Assembly (NCBI GenBank): GCA_013289685.1
Contig: JABCZL010000018.1
Coordinates: forward strand, 1-64,000
Direction of reading: 5' to 3'
DNA from: Acidobacteriota bacterium
GTDB taxonomy: Bacteria > Acidobacteriota > Terriglobia > Terriglobales > Acidobacteriaceae
DNA length: 64,000 bases
The notes beneath the pieces were generated by a model. The model did no database searches, had not been told where the DNA came from, and worked only from the letters and a program-made list of their open reading frames with translations. The position numbers and the translations under genes are program-made. Positions 19,402 to 33,793 of this stretch are shown here, in pieces. Each line of letters begins with the position of its first letter. The stretch's first letter is position 1.

Positions 19402-22287
19402 TTAGTCGTCCGAGTCTTCGCCGGCGGGTGCCGGGTTGTTGAAGTCGCTCGGGGGGCGAACCGTCTTCTCACCGGGATAGGGCCGTACAAACCCGGTGGA
19501 GAGGTACCAGTTCAGATGGTTAACGGTGTCCGGGTCCTCGGAGTCAGGCCTGGTCAGTTTGCCGGCGAAGATCTGCGCCTTCTTCTGGAGCCAAGCCTCC
19601 CTCAGAGCCTTGACCCTGGGGCTGCTCGCTGGGTTGGCTGCGCCCGCTGTAACTCCGTCGTTCAGCGGGACCTGGTTCGGCACGTGCGTCCACGGCGCGA
19701 AGTTACTCGCGGGCGGCGCACCCTGGACGAAAGCCGTCTTCATCGGCGACGCCACCAGGTCGAACTGGTTCATGGTCGGCAGACCGAGGATTTGCTCGAT
19801 CGTCCGAGTCATGTTGACCTGCGTGTAGTAAGTGTGGTCGGTGGATCCGTGCTGCACGGCGTATGGGCTGACGATATAGCCAGGGCTGCGATGACCGTCG
19901 ACGTGGTCGACGCCGTTCTGCGCATCGTCTTCCTCAAGAAAGATCGCCGATGTGGACCACACGTTGCTGTGGCTGATGTAGTCGATAATGCGCCCCACCG
20001 CCAGGTCGTTATCGGCCTGTTCGGCGTCCGGGGTCGGCGGGCCGCCAGTGTGATCATCCATGATCCACAGGATGCTCAACGCAGGCACCGTGCCAGCCGC
20101 GACGTCTTTCTTGAAGTCCTGCAACCAAAGATCGACGCGGAACTGGTCGGGGATGCCCAGATCGAACTGCGGGAAGTTCTTGATGAGGTGTAGATACACG
20201 GCCGGGACAGAGGACTCTGCCTGGACCGTGTTCTGGAAGTATAGGGTCTTCTCGCCCGCGACTCCAGGTGCGGCGCAACCAGGCCCTCCCTCGAAGCACT
20301 GCGAGTCGGCGTAAAAGTCGCTCCAGCTGGGCTCGCTGGTCGCCCCGTTCGGCTGTAGGAAGGTATCGTTCTCGACGTATTCGCCGTAGATCTTCACCGG
20401 CAGACCGGCGGCCGCCGCTTCCGAGAACAGGAAGCCCTTGCTCGTATAGGCGAGTGCATCGCCGGCGTTCCCGCCGGGATAGCTGCGGTTCCAATCGGGC
20501 GACTGGATATCGTCGGCGTAGGGCGCCATGCCCTCGGTGATCCACTGGTGACCGTCAGCCGACTGGCGGCTCGGGTCGTAGAAATTGTCGAAGAGAGGGA
20601 AGCGCTTCACCAGCGCATGCGCGTTCGGCGTGTCCTTGCCGCCGAACACTGCCAACGAGCGGTCGCCGTCGCCGGCGGCCACGTCGCCCAGGATCTGATC
20701 ATAGGTGCGGTTTTCACGGATGATCAGGAACACGTGCTTGATCAGCGACGGGTCGCCGATCTTGGCGGGGATTGCAACCGGCTTGGTATGCGGGCTGCCA
20801 CCGGCGGCAGAGTTGATATTCTGCGCCAGATCCCAGTGGTTGTTCTGGAAAACCTGCGCCGTCATTGTCGTCAGGGTCCCGCTAGACGGCACCGGGACGA
20901 TGCTGACGGTGCCGTTGTCCTGGTGGGTGTTGTAGTCGCAGACGCCGTGGTCGCACTCGAACGAATAACGCGTCCCGATGCCCTTGTCGTTGGCAACGAT
21001 GAGCGTGTTATTGGCCTCGTCGAGCACGACCGAGCTGGGCGCATAGGCTACCGGAATCATGCCCATGACGGGATTCGTCGCGCCGTTGCTGAGGCTGACC
21101 ACCCCGACCGCGTTGGCATTGTAAAGCGCGACGTAGGCAACGCCTGTCTTGCCATCGACGGCGATCGAGTTCGGCGCGGCGCCATAGGCCGGTTGGCCTG
21201 CGCCGGGCACTCCGATCGGCAGCCCAAGAGGGATGGTCCGCGCCACCGTGTTGGTAGCCGTGTCGATAATTGAGATGGAGTCGCTGTAGGTATTGGCGAC
21301 CAACAGGGACCGTCCGTAGAGCGCCATCCCAGTCGGGTGCAGACCGGTCGAGATGGTAGCGGTGACCTTCATCGTGGTCAGATCAACCACAGAAACGGTA
21401 CCGGTGATGGCGGAGCCAACCACCGGGTCCGCGACAATTTCCGTGCCGGCGGAGTAGATCTGGAAGTCTTCCGCCGTCGCGGCCCGGCCCCCCTCATTGC
21501 TGACATAGGCTGTCGTGCCGTCGCTGCTCAGCACGATGCTGTGCGGCGCGTTGCCGACGCGGATCTCGTGAACCTGCTTCTTCGTGGTCAGGTTGAGCTT
21601 GGTGAGCGTATCGTTCTGGTTCAGCAGAGCGTAAGCGCTCTTGCCATCCTTGGAGAGCGCGACACCGCCGGGATAGGAAGTGCCCGTGCTATAGAAGGTG
21701 CCGCAGGGTCTGCCATAATCCCCGATGGGGCTGTTCGGAAAGCAGCTGATGAAGGCATTGTTCGGCGGCACGCTGATCTGGGCGTTGTCTTCCAGCAGGC
21801 CTTCTGCAGTGACGTTGGCGATGGTGACATTGCTGCTGTCCTGGCTGAACACCAGGTACTTGCCGTCCGCCGAATAGGCTATGCCGCTATAGCTGCCGCT
21901 CGAATCCAGTCCGAGCGCGAGGTAGTCCTGCAGCACAACGCCGGTGTTGGTGTCGAACACCTCGACGGCTTCCGACGCGCCCATGGTGAGCACGGCGGCG
22001 GTGTGAGTTTTGAGATTGGGGTTCAGCGCGATGGCTTTCGCGCGGACCCGGATGCCGAGGTCGACTTGCGTGCCAGCTGGGGTGAGGACCTGGCCATCGC
22101 TGACGACCCAGGAGCCGTTCGGCTGCGGGCCGGTCACGTAGGTCGGGTACGGCTTGGACTGCGCAGCGGCGAGCCCCGGAAGGCTCAGCCCCGCCGCCAG
22201 CAGGCCGGCCAGCGGACGCAGGCGGTTGATCCGCGACTTATTTCGAGACCTATTTCGAAACGCATTTCGCGACGTTTTTCGAGACAT
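19402..22287 (-). CDS. Secreted YncE-type propeller / phosphoesterase protein
   Basis: 961 residues. The N-terminus is extremely basic (MSRKTSRNAFRNRSRNKSRI), followed by a hydrophobic signal core (LAGLLAAGLSLPGLAAAQ). Residues about 45-480 form a YncE/NHL-like beta-propeller with repeated units such as LSKDGKSAYALLNQNDTLTK, VGNAPHSIVLSSDGTTAYVS and TGTVSVVDLTTMKVTATIST. Residues about 510-930 match the phosphoesterase family that includes phospholipase C and AcpA-type acid phosphatases: HVFLIIRENRTYDQILGD, ITEGMAPYADDIQSPDW, ILWIMDDHTGG, IFLEEDDAQNGVDHVDGHRS, PGYIVSPYA. It probably hydrolyses phosphate esters outside the cell, with the propeller as binding platform. GGAGGAG lies 8 bases before the ATG. 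The tetrapeptide-like SRNx repeat at the N-terminus comes from a 12-bp DNA repeat. Confidence 0.88.
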   Translation of the reverse strand: MSRKTSRNAFRNRSRNKSRINRLRPLAGLLAAGLSLPGLAAAQSKPYPTYVTGPQPNGSWVVSDGQVLTPAGTQVDLGIRVRAKAIALNPNLKTHTAAVLTMGASEAVEVFDTNTGVVLQDYLALGLDSSGSYSGIAYSADGKYLVFSQDSSNVTIANVTAEGLLEDNAQISVPPNNAFISCFPNSPIGDYGRPCGTFYSTGTSYPGGVALSKDGKSAYALLNQNDTLTKLNLTTKKQVHEIRVGNAPHSIVLSSDGTTAYVSNEGGRAATAEDFQIYSAGTEIVADPVVGSAITGTVSVVDLTTMKVTATISTGLHPTGMALYGRSLLVANTYSDSISIIDTATNTVARTIPLGLPIGVPGAGQPAYGAAPNSIAVDGKTGVAYVALYNANAVGVVSLSNGATNPVMGMIPVAYAPSSVVLDEANNTLIVANDKGIGTRYSFECDHGVCDYNTHQDNGTVSIVPVPSSGTLTTMTAQVFQNNHWDLAQNINSAAGGSPHTKPVAIPAKIGDPSLIKHVFLIIRENRTYDQILGDVAAGDGDRSLAVFGGKDTPNAHALVKRFPLFDNFYDPSRQSADGHQWITEGMAPYADDIQSPDWNRSYPGGNAGDALAYTSKGFLFSEAAAAGLPVKIYGEYVENDTFLQPNGATSEPSWSDFYADSQCFEGGPGCAAPGVAGEKTLYFQNTVQAESSVPAVYLHLIKNFPQFDLGIPDQFRVDLWLQDFKKDVAAGTVPALSILWIMDDHTGGPPTPDAEQADNDLAVGRIIDYISHSNVWSTSAIFLEEDDAQNGVDHVDGHRSPGYIVSPYAVQHGSTDHTYYTQVNMTRTIEQILGLPTMNQFDLVASPMKTAFVQGAPPASNFAPWTHVPNQVPLNDGVTAGAANPASSPRVKALREAWLQKKAQIFAGKLTRPDSEDPDTVNHLNWYLSTGFVRPYPGEKTVRPPSDFNNPAPAGEDSDD

Positions 22288-22291: not shown

Positions 22292-22892
22292 GTTCTCCTC
22301 CTTGGATTTCTTTAGCGCGCAACCGGATGGGCCGTGCGACGTTGGGGTTGGAAAGACATGGTGGGGAAATGAGCCGCAATAATAGTTTCCAATCATTACG
22401 GGCTTATTACGGGTTTATGAAGATCGGGTGAAACTTCCGTTTAAGGGGGGTGAATTTTTTCTCGCGGATTGTGACGCGCGCAGGCCCGCCTCAGGCAGTG
22501 TCTTTTTCGTGGACGGGTTAGCAACACTTTGATCCCCAGGGACGGGTTCTAAGTGTAACGGTCTGCTTACAACGGTTGACTTCCGTTGTGCCCGTGACCT
22601 CAGTGGAGACGGATAGAAGATACACACAAGGGTGGCGCCCTGATCCAGCGAAACTCAGAGCGAACTCTGCGGGCATGCCCTTGCGGTTCGTCTCCCGCTG
22701 CCTTTCGAAGGTAGTGTTATCTACTTCTCAAATCAACCCAAAGCAATTGTCGGACCAAGACTAGTCGCGCTGTGCGAAACAGGCGGTCGCACGGACTGTA
22801 AGTTGTGACAGTTGTCTCGCTCAGGCGGAAGTGCGAGCGTGAGGGAACGCCGACCCATCCTAAATTTCTACAAATGAACTAGGAGCCTCCAT
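22292..22892. other. Divergent 600-base intergenic region
   Basis: It separates the phosphoesterase and sulfatase genes, which are read away from each other. Short open frames show no family resemblance. An AGGAG site precedes the sulfatase ATG at 22893. No clear promoter or repeat was found. Confidence 0.4.
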
Positions 22893-25250
22893 ATGAGTGA
22901 CCGAGACATTCAGAACCAACCGGATCGCACTATCTTGCCACCGCCCGAGAGCCCGTTCAAGGGCAAGATTGAAACCGCCATGAAGAACTCAACGCAGGAC
23001 TGGCCGCAGCCGCTTAAGGCCCCGGAAGGTGCTCCCAATGTTCTTATGATCCTTGGTGACGACATCGGCTTCGGCACGCCTAGCGCATTCGGCGGACCGG
23101 TGAATACGCCGGTTTTCGATCGGATCGCGAAGGAGGGATTGCGCTATACCGATTTTCATACGACCGCCGTTTGCGCCGCGTCGCGGGCTGCTTTTCTCAC
23201 GGGGCGCAATGCCCACTCCGTGGGCTTTGGCTTCATCCCGGAGGGTGCTGCCGGATTCCCGGGATATAACTGCATGATTCCGCCCAGCGCAGCAAGCGTG
23301 CTCGAAATACTGCGCATGAACGGTTACGGCACCGCCTGGATCGGCAAGGCCGACAACACCCCCGACAACGAAGTCACCCCCGCTGGCCCGTTTGATCGGT
23401 GGCCGACCAGAGGAGTCGAGCATTTTTATGGCTTTTTCGGAGCGGGAACGACCCAATACTACACTCCGCTCTGGCGCAACCACACTCCGGTAAGGCCGCC
23501 TAGAACGCCGGAAGAAGGCTATATCTTCGACGACGATATGGCCAACGAGGCGATCGGCTGGATTAAGCGGCAAAAATCAACCCATCCCGACAAGCCGTGG
23601 ATCATGTATTACGCCCCGACTTCGGCCAAGCCGCCGGTCGCCTCGCCAAAGGAGTTCAGCGACAGATACCGCGGCAAGTTCGATGACGGGTATGACAAGC
23701 TTCGCGAGCGCATCGTGGCGCGGCAGCTGGAAATGGGGATTGTGCCCCCCGGCACGAAGCCTGCGCCGGGACCCGACCCCTTACCAGCTTGGGACAACCT
23801 CGGCGCCAGCGACAAGAAGGTTGGCAGCCGCATGATGGAAGTCTTCTGCGGCGCGGTCGAGCACATTGATTTCCAGATCGGGCGCGTCATCGAAGCGATT
23901 AATCAATTGGGTGACTTGGACAACACGCTAATCATCTACGCCATTGGCGACAACGGCCCAACTCCCGAAGGCGGTATGCACGGCGAGATGAACAAGCTGA
24001 CTTGGATCAACGGCGTCCCGGAGTCGATTGACGAGGTCGCGAAACGTCTGGACGAATTCGGCGGCCCGAGCTCCTTCGGCGGCATTCCTGCAGCCTGGGC
24101 CTACGCCACAAGTGGTCCATACAACTATGGCAAAATGGTGACCTCGGGGGGCGGTTGCAGCACCGCAGTTGCGGTTTCCTGGCCGGCGCGCATCAAGGAC
24201 AAGGGCGCTATGCGCCGGCAGTTCACCCATCTCATTGACATCGTCCCGACCATCCTGGAAGCCGCCGGTGTGCCCGCGCCGAAGGTTGTCAATGGTGTCG
24301 CCCAGAAACCGATGGAAGGCGTAAGCGTGACCTACACGTTCGACGAAGCACAGGCGATGGACCGTCACACGACTCAGCACTTCGAGCTTACCGGCTCGCG
24401 TGCCATCTACCGCGACCGCTGGTGGGCTGGCACACGCCACGGCCTGGACGGCCTAAGCGTGATCCAAGCCAAGCCGATCGTACCTTTCGACGAGGACATC
24501 TGGGAGCTCTCCGATCGGAGGAGCGATTTCAGCCTTGCCACCGATCTGGCTGCCAAGCATCCGGAAAAGCTCAAGGAACTGCAGGCGCTCTTCGATGAGG
24601 AGGCACGCAAATACAACGTCTATCCGATGGCTAACAATGGTATTGAACTGCATCAGACTGGCACGCGGCCAAAGCTTATCGCCGGCAATAAGGCGAGCTA
24701 TGGCCCGGGCACCATCCGGCTACCGGAGGAAGGAGTCATCGACGTCAAGAACCGGTCGTTCTCCATCATCGCCGAGGTCGAAAACGTGGACGGCAAGGCC
24801 GAAGGCATGATCGTGACCAACGGCGGGATGACCGGCGGCTACGCGCTCCTGGTTCAGAATGGCAAGCCGACCTTCATCTACAACTGGCTCGCGTATGAGC
24901 GTTACACGATCGCGTCTCCCGATCCACTGCCGAAAGGCAAGAGCACGATTCAGCTGGACTTCGCCTACGATGGTGGTGGGTTAGGCAAGGGCGGCATGGC
25001 CACACTGTTCGTCAACGACAGAAAAATAGCCGAAGGCCGCGTCGCGCACACAGTGCCGTATCTCTTCTCGTATGGCGACACCTTCGATGTGGGCGAGGAC
25101 TGGTGCACGCCGGTGTCGCCAACCTACAAACTGCCGTTCAAGTTCACGGGAAACATCAAGTCGGTGACGATCGAAGCCAAGGAAGGGAATCTGAGTGCGG
25201 AGGACGTGAACCACCTCCACGAAATGCACCTGGCTGGCGTACACGATTAG
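22893..25250 (+). CDS. Arylsulfatase-family protein with altered active site
   Basis: 785 residues with the full arylsulfatase layout: first metal motif LMILGDDIGFGTPSAFGG (Asp56-Asp57), then the segment around Cys94, the second metal motif AIGDNGPTPEGGMHGEMNKL, and the C-terminal beta domain (GYALLVQNGKPTFIYNWLAY). Several catalytic positions differ from the norm. The formylglycine motif CxPxR reads C-A-A-S-R, so Pro is replaced by Ala96. The GKWH motif reads G-K-A-D, so the catalytic His is Asp154. The later His-bearing HAPHH segment reads TSAKPPVAS. Sulfatases remove sulfate esters using formylglycine and these His/Lys residues. The changes suggest a weak, altered or absent sulfatase activity. 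There is no signal peptide. The gene is read alone and convergent with a sulfotransferase gene. Confidence 0.88.
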   Translation: MSDRDIQNQPDRTILPPPESPFKGKIETAMKNSTQDWPQPLKAPEGAPNVLMILGDDIGFGTPSAFGGPVNTPVFDRIAKEGLRYTDFHTTAVCAASRAAFLTGRNAHSVGFGFIPEGAAGFPGYNCMIPPSAASVLEILRMNGYGTAWIGKADNTPDNEVTPAGPFDRWPTRGVEHFYGFFGAGTTQYYTPLWRNHTPVRPPRTPEEGYIFDDDMANEAIGWIKRQKSTHPDKPWIMYYAPTSAKPPVASPKEFSDRYRGKFDDGYDKLRERIVARQLEMGIVPPGTKPAPGPDPLPAWDNLGASDKKVGSRMMEVFCGAVEHIDFQIGRVIEAINQLGDLDNTLIIYAIGDNGPTPEGGMHGEMNKLTWINGVPESIDEVAKRLDEFGGPSSFGGIPAAWAYATSGPYNYGKMVTSGGGCSTAVAVSWPARIKDKGAMRRQFTHLIDIVPTILEAAGVPAPKVVNGVAQKPMEGVSVTYTFDEAQAMDRHTTQHFELTGSRAIYRDRWWAGTRHGLDGLSVIQAKPIVPFDEDIWELSDRRSDFSLATDLAAKHPEKLKELQALFDEEARKYNVYPMANNGIELHQTGTRPKLIAGNKASYGPGTIRLPEEGVIDVKNRSFSIIAEVENVDGKAEGMIVTNGGMTGGYALLVQNGKPTFIYNWLAYERYTIASPDPLPKGKSTIQLDFAYDGGGLGKGGMATLFVNDRKIAEGRVAHTVPYLFSYGDTFDVGEDWCTPVSPTYKLPFKFTGNIKSVTIEAKEGNLSAEDVNHLHEMHLAGVHD

Positions 25251-25266
25251 CCAGCAGTGAACGCCC

Positions 25267-25293
25267 GTGGGTCGCCATGACACGGCGACCCAC
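25267..25293 (+). terminator. Terminator-like hairpin after the sulfatase-family gene
   Basis: A perfect 10-bp stem GTGGGTCGCC / GGCGACCCAC with a 7-base loop lies 16 bases after the stop. There is no U-tract, so it may pause or protect RNA rather than terminate alone. Confidence 0.5.
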
Positions 25294-25522
25294 TCGGACG
25301 GGCCGCCACACATCGGCCTGCCATCGGTGTTGCTCACGAGCCAGAGAAAAACGGAGATGGCCCGTGGATTCGGGGGGTCGCTTCAAGGGACAATGCTCAA
25401 AACGAACGCTGACGCGGCGGTAACTGGCGAACCATCCCCATTACACTCATCTTCCCCGTGCCGTGTTTTCAGCCAGTCACGTGCGCGCGTTACCCGCGTT
25501 CAGTCGCTACCCGTCAGATTTT

Positions 25523-27208
25523 CTAAACATCGACGAGAGCGCGCAGGGGCCCCAGCCATGGTTCGTAGCGTCGCCAGCGCGCGACCGAGGTGCGATAGAT
25601 CGGCTGCCGGGTCTGCCACTTGCTGGGCGTCCTCACCGCCCGCGGATTGGATTCGGGGCGCAGGCAAGCGTCGTGCCACGCCAGGCCGCAGGCTGCGATA
25701 ATCCGGCGGATGACTGGTTCGGGCGCGCGGGTCAGCTCCTCGTAATCGACCTCGAGGAAGCGATCCGCCGGCAGGACGCTCCGCCAATGGTCGGTGAGCC
25801 GCCGGTAGCTGTGGAAATATGTGACCAGTTCGTCGCCTCCGGTCGGAAACGCCAGACCCGGATGGAAATGAGTTTGATGGATCGACAGCGCCGTGTCGAC
25901 TGCAGCGCGGCGGCAATGGATGATGATGGCGCGCGGGAATGCCAGGTGGATCAGCCCGGCCCACAGGAAGTTGAATGGCATCTTGTCGGTCACTCGCGCC
26001 GCCGCGGGTGCTATTCCGTGCAGCACGCCGAGATAGTCTGCCGCCGCTTTGGCGAGGAACGGTTTCTGGTTCCCCTCCGCGGCGTTCCCGGCTGAATACG
26101 AGCGGTGCCACGCCGCCCCGCGCTCGTTCCAGAAATTCAACTCGTCGCCGGCCCCGACCTCGGGATGCATGGAGACGATCTGCTCGACGAGAGTTGTGCC
26201 GGACCGCGGCATGCCAAGGATCAGAACCGGCGTCGCATCGCAGCTGCCGAGCTCGGGCGCCCGCGCAATCAGTTCGGGTGTACAGCGGGCAATGAGGCGG
26301 TCAGTCTCGATGGAGAACGCGGCCGAGTCGAACGACGCAGAGCCGCGCCTGACAGCGTCTGCCGAGTCGAAATGCTGCATGGCCAGGGCGTAGTCGCCAA
26401 GATCGTCCGCCGCCTTACCGATGGCGAGGTGAATCCGCAGGAGTTGTGCCATTTCCAGCCCCGGCGTGGCTAGGGCGGCTTCCATCCGTTGCAACAGACC
26501 GTCGTCATCGTCATCTCTCGTAACGGGGCGACACCGGACCAGATCGTAGTAGCATCCCGCCAGCAGCGGCGCAATCGCGATCGCCCGTTGGAAGCACTCG
26601 CGGGCCTCGTCGAAACGGCCGAACTCAGAGAGCAGATTACCCAGCAGATCATGCGCCATGGCGTTCCCCGGATCGAGCGCCAGGGTCTGACGCAGCACCT
26701 GTTCGGCTTCCTGATTGCGATCCTCGGCCAGCAGCGCCCGTGCTTTGCCCAGGCGGCCGAAGCTGGACTTGCCTCCGGTCGCCGCCGCGCGGCGGAAACA
26801 GCCGATCGCCTCGTCGCGATGCCCCAGTTCGTAGACCAGGGCGCCGGCGCGGAACCACGCCTCTGTCAGGGATGGGCGCAGCTCAGTGGCGCGGTCGTAC
26901 GCAACGATTGCCCCGCCGATGTTGCCCTGCTTCTCCAAGGCGATTCCCAGGCGAAAATGTGCATCGGCGTAGCGCGGGTTGCTGGCCACGGCCCACTGCA
27001 ATGCCGCGATGGCGTCCGGTATGCGGCCAACCTCGAGGTAGGCGAGGCCGAGATCGTGCCGGATGGTGGGATTGAACGGCTCCAGCAGCGCTGCATCGCG
27101 CAACGGCGCGATCGCATCGGCTGGTCGCCCGGCTCTGAGCAGCTTACCGGCCAACGCAAGCAGAGGCGCCACCTGCTGCGGTGCGACTGGGTTTGGAGAC
27201 TGGGACAT
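25523..27208 (-). CDS. TPR-sulfotransferase fusion
   Basis: 561 residues. The first half (about 10-260) consists of TPR units: NPTIRHDLGLAYLEVGRIPD, DAHFRLGIALEKQGNIGGAI, DPGNAMAHDLLGNLLSEFGR. The second half is a PAPS-dependent sulfotransferase domain: VLILGMPRSGTTLVEQIVSM (5'-phosphosulfate loop), GDELNFWNERG, VTDKMPFNFLWAGLIHLAFP, IIHCRRAAVDTALSIHQTHF and FLEVDYEELTRAPEPVIRRI. This matches the TPR-sulfotransferase family of bacteria. The acceptor is unknown and could be a protein, glycan or small molecule presented through the TPR. The start codon lies inside a 16-bp tandem repeat array. It converges with the sulfatase-family gene at 22.9-25.3 kb, so sulfate transfer and sulfatase-fold genes are neighbours. 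Confidence 0.9.
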   Translation of the reverse strand: MSQSPNPVAPQQVAPLLALAGKLLRAGRPADAIAPLRDAALLEPFNPTIRHDLGLAYLEVGRIPDAIAALQWAVASNPRYADAHFRLGIALEKQGNIGGAIVAYDRATELRPSLTEAWFRAGALVYELGHRDEAIGCFRRAAATGGKSSFGRLGKARALLAEDRNQEAEQVLRQTLALDPGNAMAHDLLGNLLSEFGRFDEARECFQRAIAIAPLLAGCYYDLVRCRPVTRDDDDDGLLQRMEAALATPGLEMAQLLRIHLAIGKAADDLGDYALAMQHFDSADAVRRGSASFDSAAFSIETDRLIARCTPELIARAPELGSCDATPVLILGMPRSGTTLVEQIVSMHPEVGAGDELNFWNERGAAWHRSYSAGNAAEGNQKPFLAKAAADYLGVLHGIAPAAARVTDKMPFNFLWAGLIHLAFPRAIIIHCRRAAVDTALSIHQTHFHPGLAFPTGGDELVTYFHSYRRLTDHWRSVLPADRFLEVDYEELTRAPEPVIRRIIAACGLAWHDACLRPESNPRAVRTPSKWQTRQPIYRTSVARWRRYEPWLGPLRALVDV

Positions 27209-27494: not shown

Positions 27495-27617
27495 ATGAGT
27501 GCTCGAAACGGCAGAGCCTTTTTGATCGCGCTGACCATAGGGTGGCGGTGTTTGCCCGTCAATTTCCGGGACCTGCGTTACTTGAACACGCGATTTGCCG
27601 GCGATTCAGAAGTATGA
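27495..27617 (+). CDS. Possible 40-residue leader peptide before the kinase gene
   Basis: A short frame starts at an ATG with an ideal AAGGAGG site 5 bases upstream (27483-27489) and ends 19 bases before the kinase ATG at 27637. The peptide begins [20 protein letters not shown] and has no family I recognise. It could be an expressed leader, or the front of a decayed gene with a signal-peptide-like start. The region 27271-27494 holds no other gene. Confidence 0.3.
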
Positions 27618-27636
27618 TCTATTCGATTTCCCCTCC

Positions 27637-30630
27637 ATGATCGAACAGACCATCTCGCATTACCGCATTGTCGAAAGACTCGGTGGTGGCGGTATGGGTG
27701 TGGTTTACAAGGCGGAAGACCTCAAACTGCGCCGTTTTGTAGCGATCAAATTCCTGCCCGAGGATGTCGCCAAAGATGCCCAAGCTCTTGCCCGTTTTAA
27801 GCGTGAAGCACAAGCGACTTCGGCCCTCAACCATCCGAACATCTGCACCATCTACGAGATCGATGAGCAAAACGGGCAAGCATTCATCGTCATGGAGTAC
27901 CTGGACGGCGTAACGCTCAAGCATCGCATCGACAACCTTCCGAGGGACACGGGCTTGCTCCTCTCATTCGCGATCGAAATTGCCGACGCTCTCGACGCGG
28001 CGCATGCTCAGGGGATCATTCATCGCGATATCAAGCCCGCGAACATCTTCGTGACCAAACGTGGTCATGCCAAGATTCTCGATTTCGGAGTGGCAAAGAT
28101 CATGCCCTCAGCGGTCTTTTGGAGCCAAATTGCGCTGGCTGAAACAATCGACGAACAGCACTTGACCAGCCCCGGAGCAACACTCGGAACAGTCGCCTAT
28201 ATGTCGCCGGAACAAGTGAAAGGGAAGGAACTGGACGAACGCACCGATCTGTTTTCGTTCGGCGCGGTGTTGTACGAGATGGCAACAGGAGCATTGCCGT
28301 TTCAAGGGGCAACTTCGGCTCTCATTTTCAAAGCAATTCTCGATTCCGATCCGCCACCTGCGAGGCTCTTTAATAGCGACATTCCGCAAAAGCTGGAAGA
28401 CGTTATTAATAAGGCCTTGGAGAAAGACCGCGACCTGCGTTATCAAAGCGCTAAGGAGATGCGGGCTGAGTTGCAGCGTCTGAAGCGCGACACAGAGTTC
28501 AGACGCGTGGCGCCGGGAAGTTCCGGCGGTTTGCCCTCCGCGGCGGGCAGTGGGCCGCAAGAGGCAATCGGGCAGACGAGGCCACCTTCGGGTTCCGCAC
28601 CGGCTGCGGTGATTTCGGGCTCAACCGCCGCGCGATCAGGTGAGGTCTCTGTACCTCAAAGAAGAAAAATCGGGCAGCTCGTGCTTTGGTCAGCCGTAGT
28701 GATCGCTCTCGTTGCGGGCGGCTTCTACTATTGGTCCCATCGCGGCCAGCAACTTACCGACAAAGACGCCGTTGTTCTCGCCGATTTCACCAACAATACC
28801 AGCGACCCGGTATTCGACGACACGCTGAAGACCGCGCTAAGTGTGTCTCTCAGCCAGTCGCCGTTCTTGAATGTGCTCTCCGACGGCAAAGTTGCCAACA
28901 CCTTGAGCCTGATGACGCGGCCGCGCGACGCCAGGCTCACACCCGAAGTGGTTCGTGAGATCTGCCAGCGCACGGCCAGTAAGGCCTACATTGTGGGAGC
29001 CATTGTCGGCGTGGGAAGCGAATATGAGCTGCATCTTAAGGCGGTGAATTGCCATACCAACCTCACGCTCGCGCAGGCGCAGGTCACGGCATCCGGTAAA
29101 GCGAAAGTGCTGGAGGCGCTCGGCGAAGCTGCCTCCAGGCTACGGGGTAAGCTGGGGGAATCGCTGTCCACCGTACAGAAGTTTGATGTTCCGCTCGAAC
29201 AAGCCACCACATCTTCGCTCGAAGCACTCAGGGAGTACAGCCTTGGGCAGAAGGCTGCTCAGGACAACGGTGCCGCCCAATCACTTCCCTTTGATCAACG
29301 CGCCATCGAACTGGATCCGAACTTTGCGATGGCCTATGGCGCCATTGGAATTCACTATTTCAACCTTGGCGAACCGGCACGAGCCAGCGAGTATCTCACC
29401 AAGGCGTTTCAGTTGCGGGAACACGCCAGCGAGCGCGAGAGGCTCTCGATCACCGCCCACTACTATTCGTCGGTGAGCGGTGAACTGGACAAGTCAGCTG
29501 AAACCTATCGGGAAAGGATTGCAACCTATCCACGGGACATCGCGGCCTACAACAATCTTGGGATCGTATACGCCGAACAGGGTCTGTTTGAAAAAGCGGT
29601 TGAGGTGACAAGAGAAGGTATCCGCATTGCACCGGAGCAAGTCACTCTCGACGAGAACCTTACTGACTACCTTCTTGCGCTGCACAGATTTGCCGATGCG
29701 CGGCAACTCATCCGCGAAATGCAGCCCCGCAAACCAGACAACTACATCTTTCCCGCGGCTTTGTATGCGCTTGCGTTTTTCTCCTCGGACTCGGCCGCGA
29801 TGGCCGAACAAGAGAAATGGTTTGCGCAAAAACCCGAATACGAGAACTTCGGATTGGCCCTGGCCTCCGACTCGGAGGCTTACGCTGGTCATCTGGGCAG
29901 GGCGCGGGAACTGACAAAGCGCGCGGTGGACTCCGCCATTCGGGCAGACAGCAAAGAAGCGGGCGCGATATGGCAGGGGATTGCGGCACAGCGTGAGGCC
30001 GCCTTCGGCATCGCCACTGAGGCACGGAAGACCGCAGCAGAGGCTCTCAAGCTTGCTCCCGCGAGCCAGGGCGCGCAAGCTGAAGCGGCCCTGGCATTCG
30101 CTTTGGCGGGCGATGGGGCGCAGTCGGAGACTTTGGCGCGCGACTTAGCACAACGATTTCCACTGGACACGCAGATCCAGTCGCTGTGGCTGCCAGCAAT
30201 TCAGGCGCAATTGGCGCTGAATCACAACGACCCCGCTTCGGCCCTGAAAGCGTTGCAAATACTGTCCACGCCGCTCGAGTTTGGACTAGTCGCATTTTCC
30301 GCTAACGCCTCCGGATCCTGCCTCTATCCGACCTACATTCGCGGCAAGGCGTACCTCGCTGCCGGACAAGGCACGGCCGCTGCCGCCGAATTCCAGAAGG
30401 TTCTTGATCACAAGGGTATTGTCTGGAATTGCTGGACCGGTGCCCTGTCTCAGCTTGGTGTGGCGCGGGCAAATGCGCTCGCGGCGAAAGCTTTACACGG
30501 CGCCGACTCCGATGCGGCCCGCCTGCGCGCGCTTGCGGCCTATAACGACTTCTTCATCCTGTGGAAAGATGCCGACCCCAACATCCCGATCCAGCAACAA
30601 GCCAAAGCCGAGTACTCGAAGCTACAGTGA
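27637..30630 (+). CDS. Membrane Ser/Thr protein kinase with periplasmic TPR tail (copy 1)
   Basis: 997 residues from the ATG at 27637, where the kinase domain begins at once; an extension to 27595 adds 14 residues without a domain. The Hanks-type kinase spans about 9-285: Gly loop [14 protein letters not shown], Lys38 in [10 protein letters not shown], catalytic [11 protein letters not shown] with Asp131, DFG at 149-151, and YMSPEQ. All key residues are present, so it should be active. A Gly/Ser/Pro-rich linker leads to one TM at about 347-366. Outside follow the block [33 protein letters not shown], and then TPR-like helices to the end. The upstream bases are pyrimidine-rich with no ribosome binding site. 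It is followed after 169 bases by a paralogue of the same length and closely matching sequence. Confidence 0.92.
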
Positions 30631-30761
30631 ACAGCCCAACGATTTCTGCTGGCGGCCGGACACTCAGTACCCGACTCTCAGTATCAATAGACGATGACGG
30701 CGCACCGTGAAATTGGGTTGCTGCGTACATCTCAACGAGTACTGCATCTCCTCTAGTCTCA

Positions 30762-30790
30762 TTGACTTGCCCACTCTATCCACGTAAGAT
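30762..30790 (+). promoter_or_regulatory. Sigma-70-type promoter of the second kinase gene
   Basis: TTGACT at 30762-30767 and TAAGAT at 30785-30790 are spaced by exactly 17 bases. The expected RNA start falls at about 30797-30800, on the GTG start codon itself, so the message would be leaderless or nearly so. Confidence 0.7.
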
Positions 30791-30799
30791 TCGCGCACC

Positions 30800-33793
30800 G
30801 TGCTTGGCCAGATCATCGCCCACTATCGCATTCTGGAGAAACTCGGCGGTGGCGGCATGGGTGTTGTCTACAAGGCTGAGGATGTTCGTCTGCACCGTTT
30901 CGTCGCTCTGAAATTCCTGCCCGAAGATGTCTCCCGTGACCCGCAGGCGGCCGCCCGTTTTCAACGTGAAGCGCAAGCGGCGTCGGCTCTAAACCATCCC
31001 AACATCTGCACCATCTACGACATCGGCGAGCAGGACACCCATGCGTTTATCGCGATGGAATTCCTGGAGGGAATGACCCTGAAGCACCGCATCGCCGGGC
31101 GCCCGTTGGAGATGAATTTCATCTTGTCGCTGGCTATCGAAATCGCCGACGCGCTTGATGCGGCTCACTCGGAAGGCATCGTTCACCGCGACATAAAGCC
31201 GGCAAACATCTTTGTAACCAAGCGCGGGCACGCCAAAATTCTGGATTTCGGACTGGCGAAGGTGGTGCCGACTCTCGCTGGCGCGCCCGGAGAGCGAGCG
31301 TTGGCTACTGCGGGTATCGACGAACATCTGACTAGTCCGGGCTCGACACTGGGAACCGTTGCCTACATGTCGCCCGAACAAGCCAGGGGCAGGGAACTGG
31401 ACACGCGCACAGACCTGTTCTCCTTCGGATCGGTGCTGTATGAAATGGCGACTGGAGTGTTGCCCTTTCACGGGGACACCTCGGCGTTGATCTTTAAGGC
31501 CATCCTCGACAGCGATCCGCCCCCAGCCATCCGGTTCAATCGCGAGATTCCGCCCAGTTTTGAAGACATCATCAGCCGCGCCCTGGAAAAGGACCCGGAT
31601 CTGCGCTTTCAAAGCGCGAAGGAAATGCGGGCCGAGCTGCAGCGGCTAAAGCGGGACAGCGAGACCGGGCGCGCGGCGGCCGGCAGTTCGGGGAAGATCG
31701 CGGTGGCGCGGGAAAGCGGGCAGCAGGCGGCGGCTACACCACCAGCGCGGGAATCCGGTTCCGGCCCCAGTTTGACTGGTTCGACCGCATTGCACGCACC
31801 GGCAGGAGCTGAGATTCAGGTAGCCGGAAAAAGAAATCTCTGGAAAGTACTGGTGCCTTCGCTGGTGGTCGCGGCGCTGGTTGCCGGAGTGCTCTATTAT
31901 CGCCTTCACCAAGTTTCGAGGCTCACCGAGAAAGACACGATAGTGGTTGCTGATTTTAGCAACAGCACAGGCGATCCGGTGTTTGATGACACACTGAAAA
32001 CAGCTTTGACGGTGGCGCTAAACGAATCGCCATTCCTGAACGTGCTTCCTGAAAACAAAATCACGTCCACCCTGAAGCAGATGACTCGTCCGCCGGATAC
32101 GAAACTCACAGCCGAGGTGGCGCGCGAAGTGTGCGAGCGATCGGCGAGCAATGCCTACATTGCCGGCTCGATTGCAAACTTGGGCAGCCAGTATGTTTTG
32201 GAGCTGAAAGTCGTAAGCTGCCAAACCGGCGATACTTTGGCGCAGAAGCAAGTCACAGCGGAGGGAAAAGAGAAAGTATTGAATTCCGTCGGCACGGCAG
32301 CCGCCAATCTGCGCGGCGAGATGGGCGAGTCGCTCGCCTCTGTGAAGAAGTTCGATGTTCCCCTGCAGGAGGCCACAACCTCGTCACTCGAAGCTCTTAA
32401 GGCTTATAGCCTCGGCATAAGAACCCGCAATGAGAGGGGACCTGAAGCATCTTTGCTTGATTACCAGCGCGCCATTCAACTGGATCCTAATTTTGCCATG
32501 GGGTATCGCGCCATCGCTGGCTCCTACTCTGCTTTAGGCCAGATTGCGCGCGCAAGTGAGTACATCACCAAAGCTTTTGAATTGCGGGAGCATGCCAGTG
32601 AGCGCGAGAAGCTCCTCATCACGGCCGAGTTTTATTCGAACGCAACCGGTGAACTAGATAAGGCAGCACATACTTGCGAGGCACTGATCGAGAGCTACCC
32701 TCGTGACGCCGACGCTTACAACCGGTTGGGGACGATTTACAGTCTGCAGGGCCACTATGACGAAGCTATCGAGATGGCGCGCCAATGCCAGCGCATCGCG
32801 CCAGACCGCCTCGCTTCTTTTGGAAATCTCGCCGCCTATCTGATTGCTTTGAACCGGTTTTCCGAAGCGCGACAAACGATTCAGGAGGCGCACACAAGAA
32901 AGCTGGAGAGTTATATCGTGCACACCGACCTGTATCTAATGTCCTTTCTGGCAACGGATTCATCGGGTATGCAGGAAGAGCAACAGTGGTTTGCGTCAAG
33001 GCCGGACGTGGCAGACAACGGATCTTCTCTTGCGTCCGATACGGAAGCCTATACCGGCCATCTCGCGAAGGCGCGTGGGCTGACCCGCCAGTCGGTCAAT
33101 GAAGCTGTGCAAGCCGACAGCAAAGAAGATGCTGCGATCTGGTGGGAGAATGCCGCGTTGCGCGAAGCTGGTTTTGGCAATTTTTCACAAGCAGGCGAGG
33201 ACGCGGCGGCAGGACTTAAAGTCGCCCCTGCCAGCCAGGGTGTTACGGTCGAGGCGGCGCTGGCGTATGCGATGACTGGCGACAACGTCAAAGCCCAGTC
33301 GTTGGCACAGGATCTGAACAAGAGATATCCGCTCCACACCCAGACGCAAAACCTATGGCTGCCGGCGATTCAGGCTCAATTGTCGCTGAACCGCAAACAG
33401 GCCGATGCGGCCATCAATCAACTCCACTCGGCGTTGCCGCCCATGGAATACGCCTCCATCCCTTTTGTGAATAACGTTTCCTGCCTGTACCACACCTACA
33501 TTCGCGGTGAGGCGTATCTGGCTGCCGGGCAGGGAACGGCTGCGGCGGTGGAATTTCAGAAGATTCTCGACCATAGCGGCATCGCGTGGAACTGCTGGAC
33601 GGGAGCGCTGGCGCATCTCGGGGTGGCGCGCGCGAATGCGTTGCAAGCGAGAGCTTCGCAGGGTGCGGACGCCGATGCAGCCCGTGTCCGCGCCCTCGCC
33701 GCTTACAAGTATTTCCTGACGCTCTGGAAGGATGCCGACCCCGACATTCCGGTCTACAGGCAAGCCAAAGCCGAGTACACCAAGCTGCAATAA
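30800..33793 (+). CDS. Membrane Ser/Thr protein kinase with periplasmic TPR tail (copy 2)
   Basis: 997 residues, starting from a GTG at 30800 ([20 protein letters not shown]). The kinase keeps Lys38 ([10 protein letters not shown]), [14 protein letters not shown] in [10 protein letters not shown] and [21 protein letters not shown] linker rich in Ala, Gly and Ser is followed by one TM ([18 protein letters not shown]). The outside part begins [20 protein letters not shown] with [15 protein letters not shown], then helical repeats ending [13 protein letters not shown]. It is a tandem duplicate of the preceding kinase gene, and both linkers vary more than the catalytic and periplasmic parts. There is its own promoter in the 169-base gap, so the copies can be controlled separately. 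The substrates are unknown. No ribosome binding site precedes the GTG. Confidence 0.92.

Follow-up and report, generated by a model that had tools for sequence, protein, structure and literature searches.

The gene at 22893-25250 of the window (the whole 64,000-nucleotide stretch of acidobacterial DNA that was analysed) encodes a 785-aa protein with the fold of the S1 sulfatases, in which two catalytic histidines are replaced. In our leading reading, for and against which we see the chances as about even, the gene was acquired horizontally and encodes an S1-type formylglycine hydrolase whose active site has been rewired, with efficient sulfatase turnover probably lost and other esters as likeliest substrates. 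The fold is of a known kind; the combination of Asp at the nucleophile-flanking His (His-A; His115 of Pseudomonas aeruginosa AtsA) with Lys at the general-acid His (AtsA His211) was found in this protein only.

An intact gene for a sulfatase-fold protein

The open reading frame starts with ATG downstream of an AGGAG ribosome-binding site and is interrupted by neither a stop codon nor a frameshift. Its product scored 153.7 bits against the Pfam Sulfatase profile PF00884 (cut-off 25). A first structure model of the protein was poor (pLDDT 55.5). The second, usable model, which covers the catalytic domain and was built with 18 relatives, reached pLDDT 77.3 and pTM 0.86 and matched AtsA (1hdh) with a Z of 41.7 and an rmsd of 2.5 over 487 residues. 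Profile score and fold match together place the protein in the S1 sulfatase / alkaline phosphatase superfamily, as an earlier note made from the sequence had proposed. The C-terminal domain, for which Pfam gave no match, is similar to the additional domain found in long arylsulfatases. The protein has no export signal: five codons upstream of the ATG the frame is closed by a stop. The hairpin behind the gene is a possible transcript end, without a clear T run. The features are collected in Table 1.

Table 1. Features of the sulfatase-fold gene and its surroundings (positions in the window; residue numbers of the 785-aa protein).
Feature	Position	Strand	Basis or remark
Sulfatase-fold CDS	22893..25250	+	785 aa, S1 (formylglycine), long two-domain type, without export signal
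D56-D57, metal ligands (AtsA D13/D14), kept	23058..23063	+	phmmer and MAFFT
C94-A-A-S-R98, formylglycine motif of CxAxR type (AtsA C51/R55), kept	23172..23186	+	Alignment; PMC5066984
K152 (AtsA K113, Lys-A), kept	23346..23348	+	Alignment
D154 in place of the nucleophile-flanking His (AtsA H115, His-A)	23352..23354	+	Alignment
T243-S-A-K246-P-P-V-A-S251 in place of G-A-T-H-A-P-H-H-V	23619..23645	+	Alignment
K246 at AtsA H211 (general-acid His)	23628-23630	+	Alignment
D353-N354 of DNG, metal ligands (AtsA D317/N318), kept	23949..23954	+	Alignment
K414 (AtsA K375, general-acid partner), kept	24132..24134	+	Alignment
C-terminal all-beta domain, residues ~591-785 (last ~195)	24663..25247	+	Strands from structure model
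Hairpin, 13-bp arms	25267..25293	+	Just 3' of stop codon
Inserted segment, this gene only	22517..25484 (approximate)		Congeners have ~50-100 bp here

Two catalytic histidines are replaced

Active-site residues were assigned by phmmer alignment to the PDB entry of AtsA (1hdh), a MAFFT L-INS-i alignment of 62 sequences and a MAFFT alignment of 19 sequences. AtsA D13, D14, C51, R55, K113, H115, H211, D317, N318 and K375 correspond to D56, D57, C94, R98, K152, D154, K246, D353, N354 and K414. Eight of these ten residues are retained, including the complete S1 metal-ligand set (D, D, D, N), which bears out the DD and DNG motifs recognised in the earlier note. The other two are changed: where S1 sulfatases have His at AtsA positions 115 and 211, this protein has Asp154 (in G151-K152-A-D154, the counterpart of GK-x-H) and Lys246, and all three alignments agreed on both. 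The segments read as GKAD and TSAKPPVAS are thus true replacements.

In 59 relatives, position 154 is occupied by His in 56, by Gly in two and by Ser in one (MAFFT); among 61 relatives, Asp is unique to the protein studied here, and its codon, GAC, is one base from CAC (His). At position 246 all 60 other relatives have His, and Lys occurs only here and in a sister protein from Mesorhizobium. Given these counts, chance is an unlikely cause of the two replacements. The earlier note had allowed that a better alignment might recover a His nearby; since the nearest His is more than 20 residues away from D154 and more than 14 from K246, an alignment shift restores neither catalytic His.

The same note had counted CAASR as a third lost feature, and here we disagree. 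C94-A-A-S-R98 conforms with the consensus for S1, (C/S)-x-(P/A)-x-R (PMC10154612, PMC12421950); Ala replaces Pro in the motif of 369 of 4058 sulfatases (PMC5066984), and the sister's CSASR gene adjoins a gene for a formylglycine-generating enzyme (FGE). CAASR is no defect, so the missing features are two rather than three. CxAxR and Lys246 are shared with the sister, and D154 stands alone. With two histidines replaced beside a kept metal site, altered or lost sulfatase activity remains a sensible inference; the note's proposals of a pseudo-sulfatase or another mechanism are both unproven. The genome encodes a genuine-looking FGE with the catalytic Cys pair (GGSFLCSHQYCSR; GGSFLC..QYCSR), and C94 could therefore be converted to formylglycine. 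Another sulfatase of the same genome (L002, C7) carries CTAGR, likewise of the CxAxR type.

A sister protein on a Mesorhizobium plasmid

A search of 72,556 plasmids returned one protein with 67.6% identity over 96% of the length, WP_202367890.1 from a plasmid of Mesorhizobium sp. L-2-11. All other proteins are below 52% identity to either of the two, which form a sister pair with 100% support in the tree. The Mesorhizobium protein reads CSASR, GKTH and NGHKPPVG at the three motifs and has CxASR, Lys246, V249, C319, T357 and C422 in common with the 785-aa protein. Unlike the latter, it has His at 154, a further His at 245 before Lys246, and a twin-arginine-like export signal. Its gene also has as neighbours genes for a MetA-type outer-membrane protein and for an FGE, the latter with the catalytic Cys pair; the 785-aa gene has no such neighbours. 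The sulfatase-FGE operon looks functional, and its region is rich in flanking integrases and transposases. Because His211 to Lys is shared with this sister, it is a trait of the clade and not random decay; His115 to Asp is absent from the sister and therefore specific to the 785-aa protein. Further clade-specific changes, namely A319C (Ala in 60 of 60 elsewhere), S357T, T422C and H249V, suggest a remodelled site rather than random loss.

No additional clade member was found in ~600 Acidobacteriota, 339 Planktothrix-phylum and 396 Mycobacterium-phylum genomes, the plasmid set or viral contigs; a scan of 84,980 species covered exact peptides of the 785-aa protein only. The two-protein clade may be larger, as Rhizobiales genomes lie outside the searched set.

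A single-gene insertion and relative-rate counts

The genes for a phosphoesterase-propeller protein (19405-22287, minus strand) and a TPR-sulfotransferase (25526-27208, minus strand) are conserved neighbours in the genus, and among the genomes compared the pair is split by a sulfatase only here. They are direct neighbours in six congeners, 195-480 bp apart, and are separated by 3.2 kb in the window. Flank homology stops near 22516 and restarts near 25484 (approximate ends, set by eye from the alignment), indicating a single-gene insertion of ~3 kb that replaced ~50 bp. We infer that the sulfatase gene was acquired horizontally by a soil-type acidobacterium. Within 22517-25484 we found no transposase and no convincing direct, inverted or terminal repeats. 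The ortholog is absent from 44 other congeners, in which the best match had 47% identity, apart from a canonical GKNH-type fragment at ~61%. One congener holds a ~160-residue canonical long-arylsulfatase fragment (L121:368-850, minus strand; CAPSR, GKNH), apparently a gene remnant.

Recent foreign DNA was considered on grounds of composition and rejected: GC (59.6%) and GC3 (73.9%) of the gene equal those of the in-genome paralogue, which points to a similar donor or to an arrival that lies some time back. A link to the TPR-sulfotransferase was also rejected, as congeners have that gene beside the phosphoesterase-propeller gene without a sulfatase. Elsewhere in the window, 27595-33793 holds a tandem of two adjacent, paralogous genes whose products are Ser/Thr kinase plus TPR proteins.

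The branch of the 785-aa protein is longer than that of its sister (0.38 vs 0.22). In a relative-rate test with one outgroup it had 71 unique changes against 48 (chi2 4.4); with the other outgroups chi2 was 9.1 in one case and not significant in five, so that the counts lean towards faster change in the 785-aa protein, with two of seven tests significant overall. Of the 651 nucleotide differences between the two genes, 332 fall at codon position 3. Two otherwise invariant residues are lost, G509 to R and Y540 to S (invariant in 60 and 59 relatives, respectively), which fits relaxed constraint.

A proposed formylglycine hydrolase with shifted specificity, or possible loss of function

In AtsA the role proposed for His115 is to break the formylglycine-sulfate intermediate, and the commonest natural replacement of His211, an active-site residue 99% conserved across S1, is Lys (10 of 4058; PMC5066984). 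A His201-Lys309 pair has been proposed as general acid in choline sulfatase (PMC5870055); in carbohydrate sulfatases the part of catalytic acid can fall to a conserved Lys or His (PMC10154612). In SpAS1, every expressible His-A replacement brought sulfatase activity down more than tenfold, and activity on phosphate mono- and diesters went up; Asp occupies His-A in most phosphonate monoester hydrolases (PMHs; PMC5488252). Taken together, these findings make it most likely that the protein is a formylglycine hydrolase whose sulfatase activity is reduced and whose phospho- or phosphonoesterase activity is possibly raised.

With C94, R98, D56, D57, D353, N354, K152 and K414 all retained, the site could still be matured and metal-loaded, and formylglycine would remain the nucleophile on S or P. 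Standing where the general-acid His211 is otherwise found, K246 may protonate the leaving group or, beside K414, stabilise it by charge. With D154 in place of His115, the base that splits the formylglycine-sulfate intermediate would be gone. Owing to these two replacements the protein probably no longer turns over sulfate esters efficiently; any activity that it has kept or gained would most likely be on phospho-, phosphonate or other esters in the cytoplasm. The changes may have come in two steps, His211 to Lys in the ancestor common to the Mesorhizobium protein and His115 to Asp in the acidobacterial lineage. More specifically, and only tentatively, we propose a two-step natural switch from sulfatase to other esters, in which the Lys-Lys pair K246/K414 would handle the leaving group while Asp flanks the nucleophile, giving a specificity undescribed for sulfatases or PMHs.

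The eight retained residues, the AtsA-like model, the FGE of the genome, the FGE operon of the sister, the clade changes, the intact reading frame and the third-position share of the nucleotide differences speak for a shifted hydrolase. Against it stand a double change known from one protein, the longer branch, rate counts that lean towards faster change and the loss of G509 and Y540. The choline sulfatase mutants also count against it: H104A lowered kcat/KM ~1800-fold (computed from the numbers in Table 2 of PMC5870055), and H201A lost nearly all activity (PMC5870055). So does the absence of other PMH marks (Lys-A to Tyr, metal Asn to His). The main and serious rival, to which we give a real though lesser chance, is a pseudo-sulfatase whose catalytic role was lost after the single-gene transfer and which is now drifting or binds sulfated or phosphorylated ligands. 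The loss of the general-acid His and of the base that splits the intermediate, the two changed invariant positions, and the branch length and rate counts would all fit this rival. The 785-aa protein also lacks an export signal, an adjacent FGE gene and an adjacent porin gene, unlike its sister, and a gene missing from 44 other congeners appears dispensable. However, the frame is intact with its ribosome-binding site, the nucleophile, the metal ligands and both active-site lysines are retained, Lys246 is already present in the sister inside an FGE operon, and a GC3 equal to that of the host indicates that the gene has probably been open for some time.

An ordinary sulfatase, with Lys246 as general acid, Asp154 tolerated and a native sulfate-ester substrate, seems improbable to us. 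CxAxR is a normal formylglycine motif and His115 is only 81% conserved across S1 (PMC5066984), Lys is able to act as catalytic acid, and the sister sits in a sulfatase-FGE-channel cluster; yet the SpAS1 losses, the His in nearly all relatives at 154 and the updated S1 consensus at His115, in which Asp is not among the residues above 1% (PMC5066984), all argue against it. We consider it very improbable that Asp154 stems from an error in sequencing or assembly that turned CAC into GAC, which would leave only the clade-wide His211 to Lys as real. The genome is a draft of 48 contigs, a single base makes the difference, and His stands at 154 in the sister, but the remainder of the gene is without signs of error, the genome has 98.9% completeness and 0.1% contamination, and the protein carries other changes of its own at invariant positions.

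If the 785-aa protein is active, it would form with the Mesorhizobium protein, which has the Lys swap only, a natural test of a change in sulfatase chemistry, a switch that has been studied by laboratory mutagenesis (PMC5488252). If it is inactive, it would clearly illustrate a pseudo-sulfatase to which annotation pipelines would give the name 'arylsulfatase', as they do to its Mesorhizobium relative. Either way, the formylglycine motif by itself is insufficient to call a sulfatase.

Comparison with known enzymes

The long arylsulfatases of Acidobacteriota, Actinomycetota, Cyanobacteriota and others have the domain layout in common with the 785-aa protein (43-49% identity). These enzymes, including the in-genome paralogue (G000:C7:44307-46619), retain CxPTR, GK-x-H and T-H-A-P-H-H, which the 785-aa protein does not. 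Long arylsulfatases also occur on IMG/VR contigs filed as viral (L079-L086, L095), one of which (L085) has CSTTR at the formylglycine site. A group of ~620-aa sulfatases in the same genus (L039/G043, L050/G006, L122:3749-5373/G034) reads GKYG, with Gly at His-A, and keeps CAPTR; the general-acid His is kept in L039 and L050. On sequence grounds this group is a second, independent loss of His-A.

PMHs (RlPMH, BcPMH; D-type) are alike in belonging to the alkaline phosphatase superfamily, in the formylglycine nucleophile and in having Asp (or Thr) at His-A, as D154 here. They differ in that Lys-A is Tyr and the metal Asn is His, where the 785-aa protein has Lys152 and Asn354, and in retaining the general-acid His, where it has Lys246. 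It scored 58.8 bits against the NCBIfam PehA model NF045661 (cut-off 900). With Lys-A still Lys and the fourth metal ligand still Asn, assignment as a PMH by sequence was rejected. The acesulfame sulfatase of Shinella (PMC11500405) was also set aside, being a different, choline-sulfatase-like enzyme.

AtsA (SulfAtlas S1_4) shares with the 785-aa protein the fold, 28% identity, the Cys and Arg, the four metal ligands and the lysines K113 and K375. The 785-aa protein differs from it in Asp for H115, Lys for H211, the extra C-terminal beta domain and CAASR rather than CxPxR.
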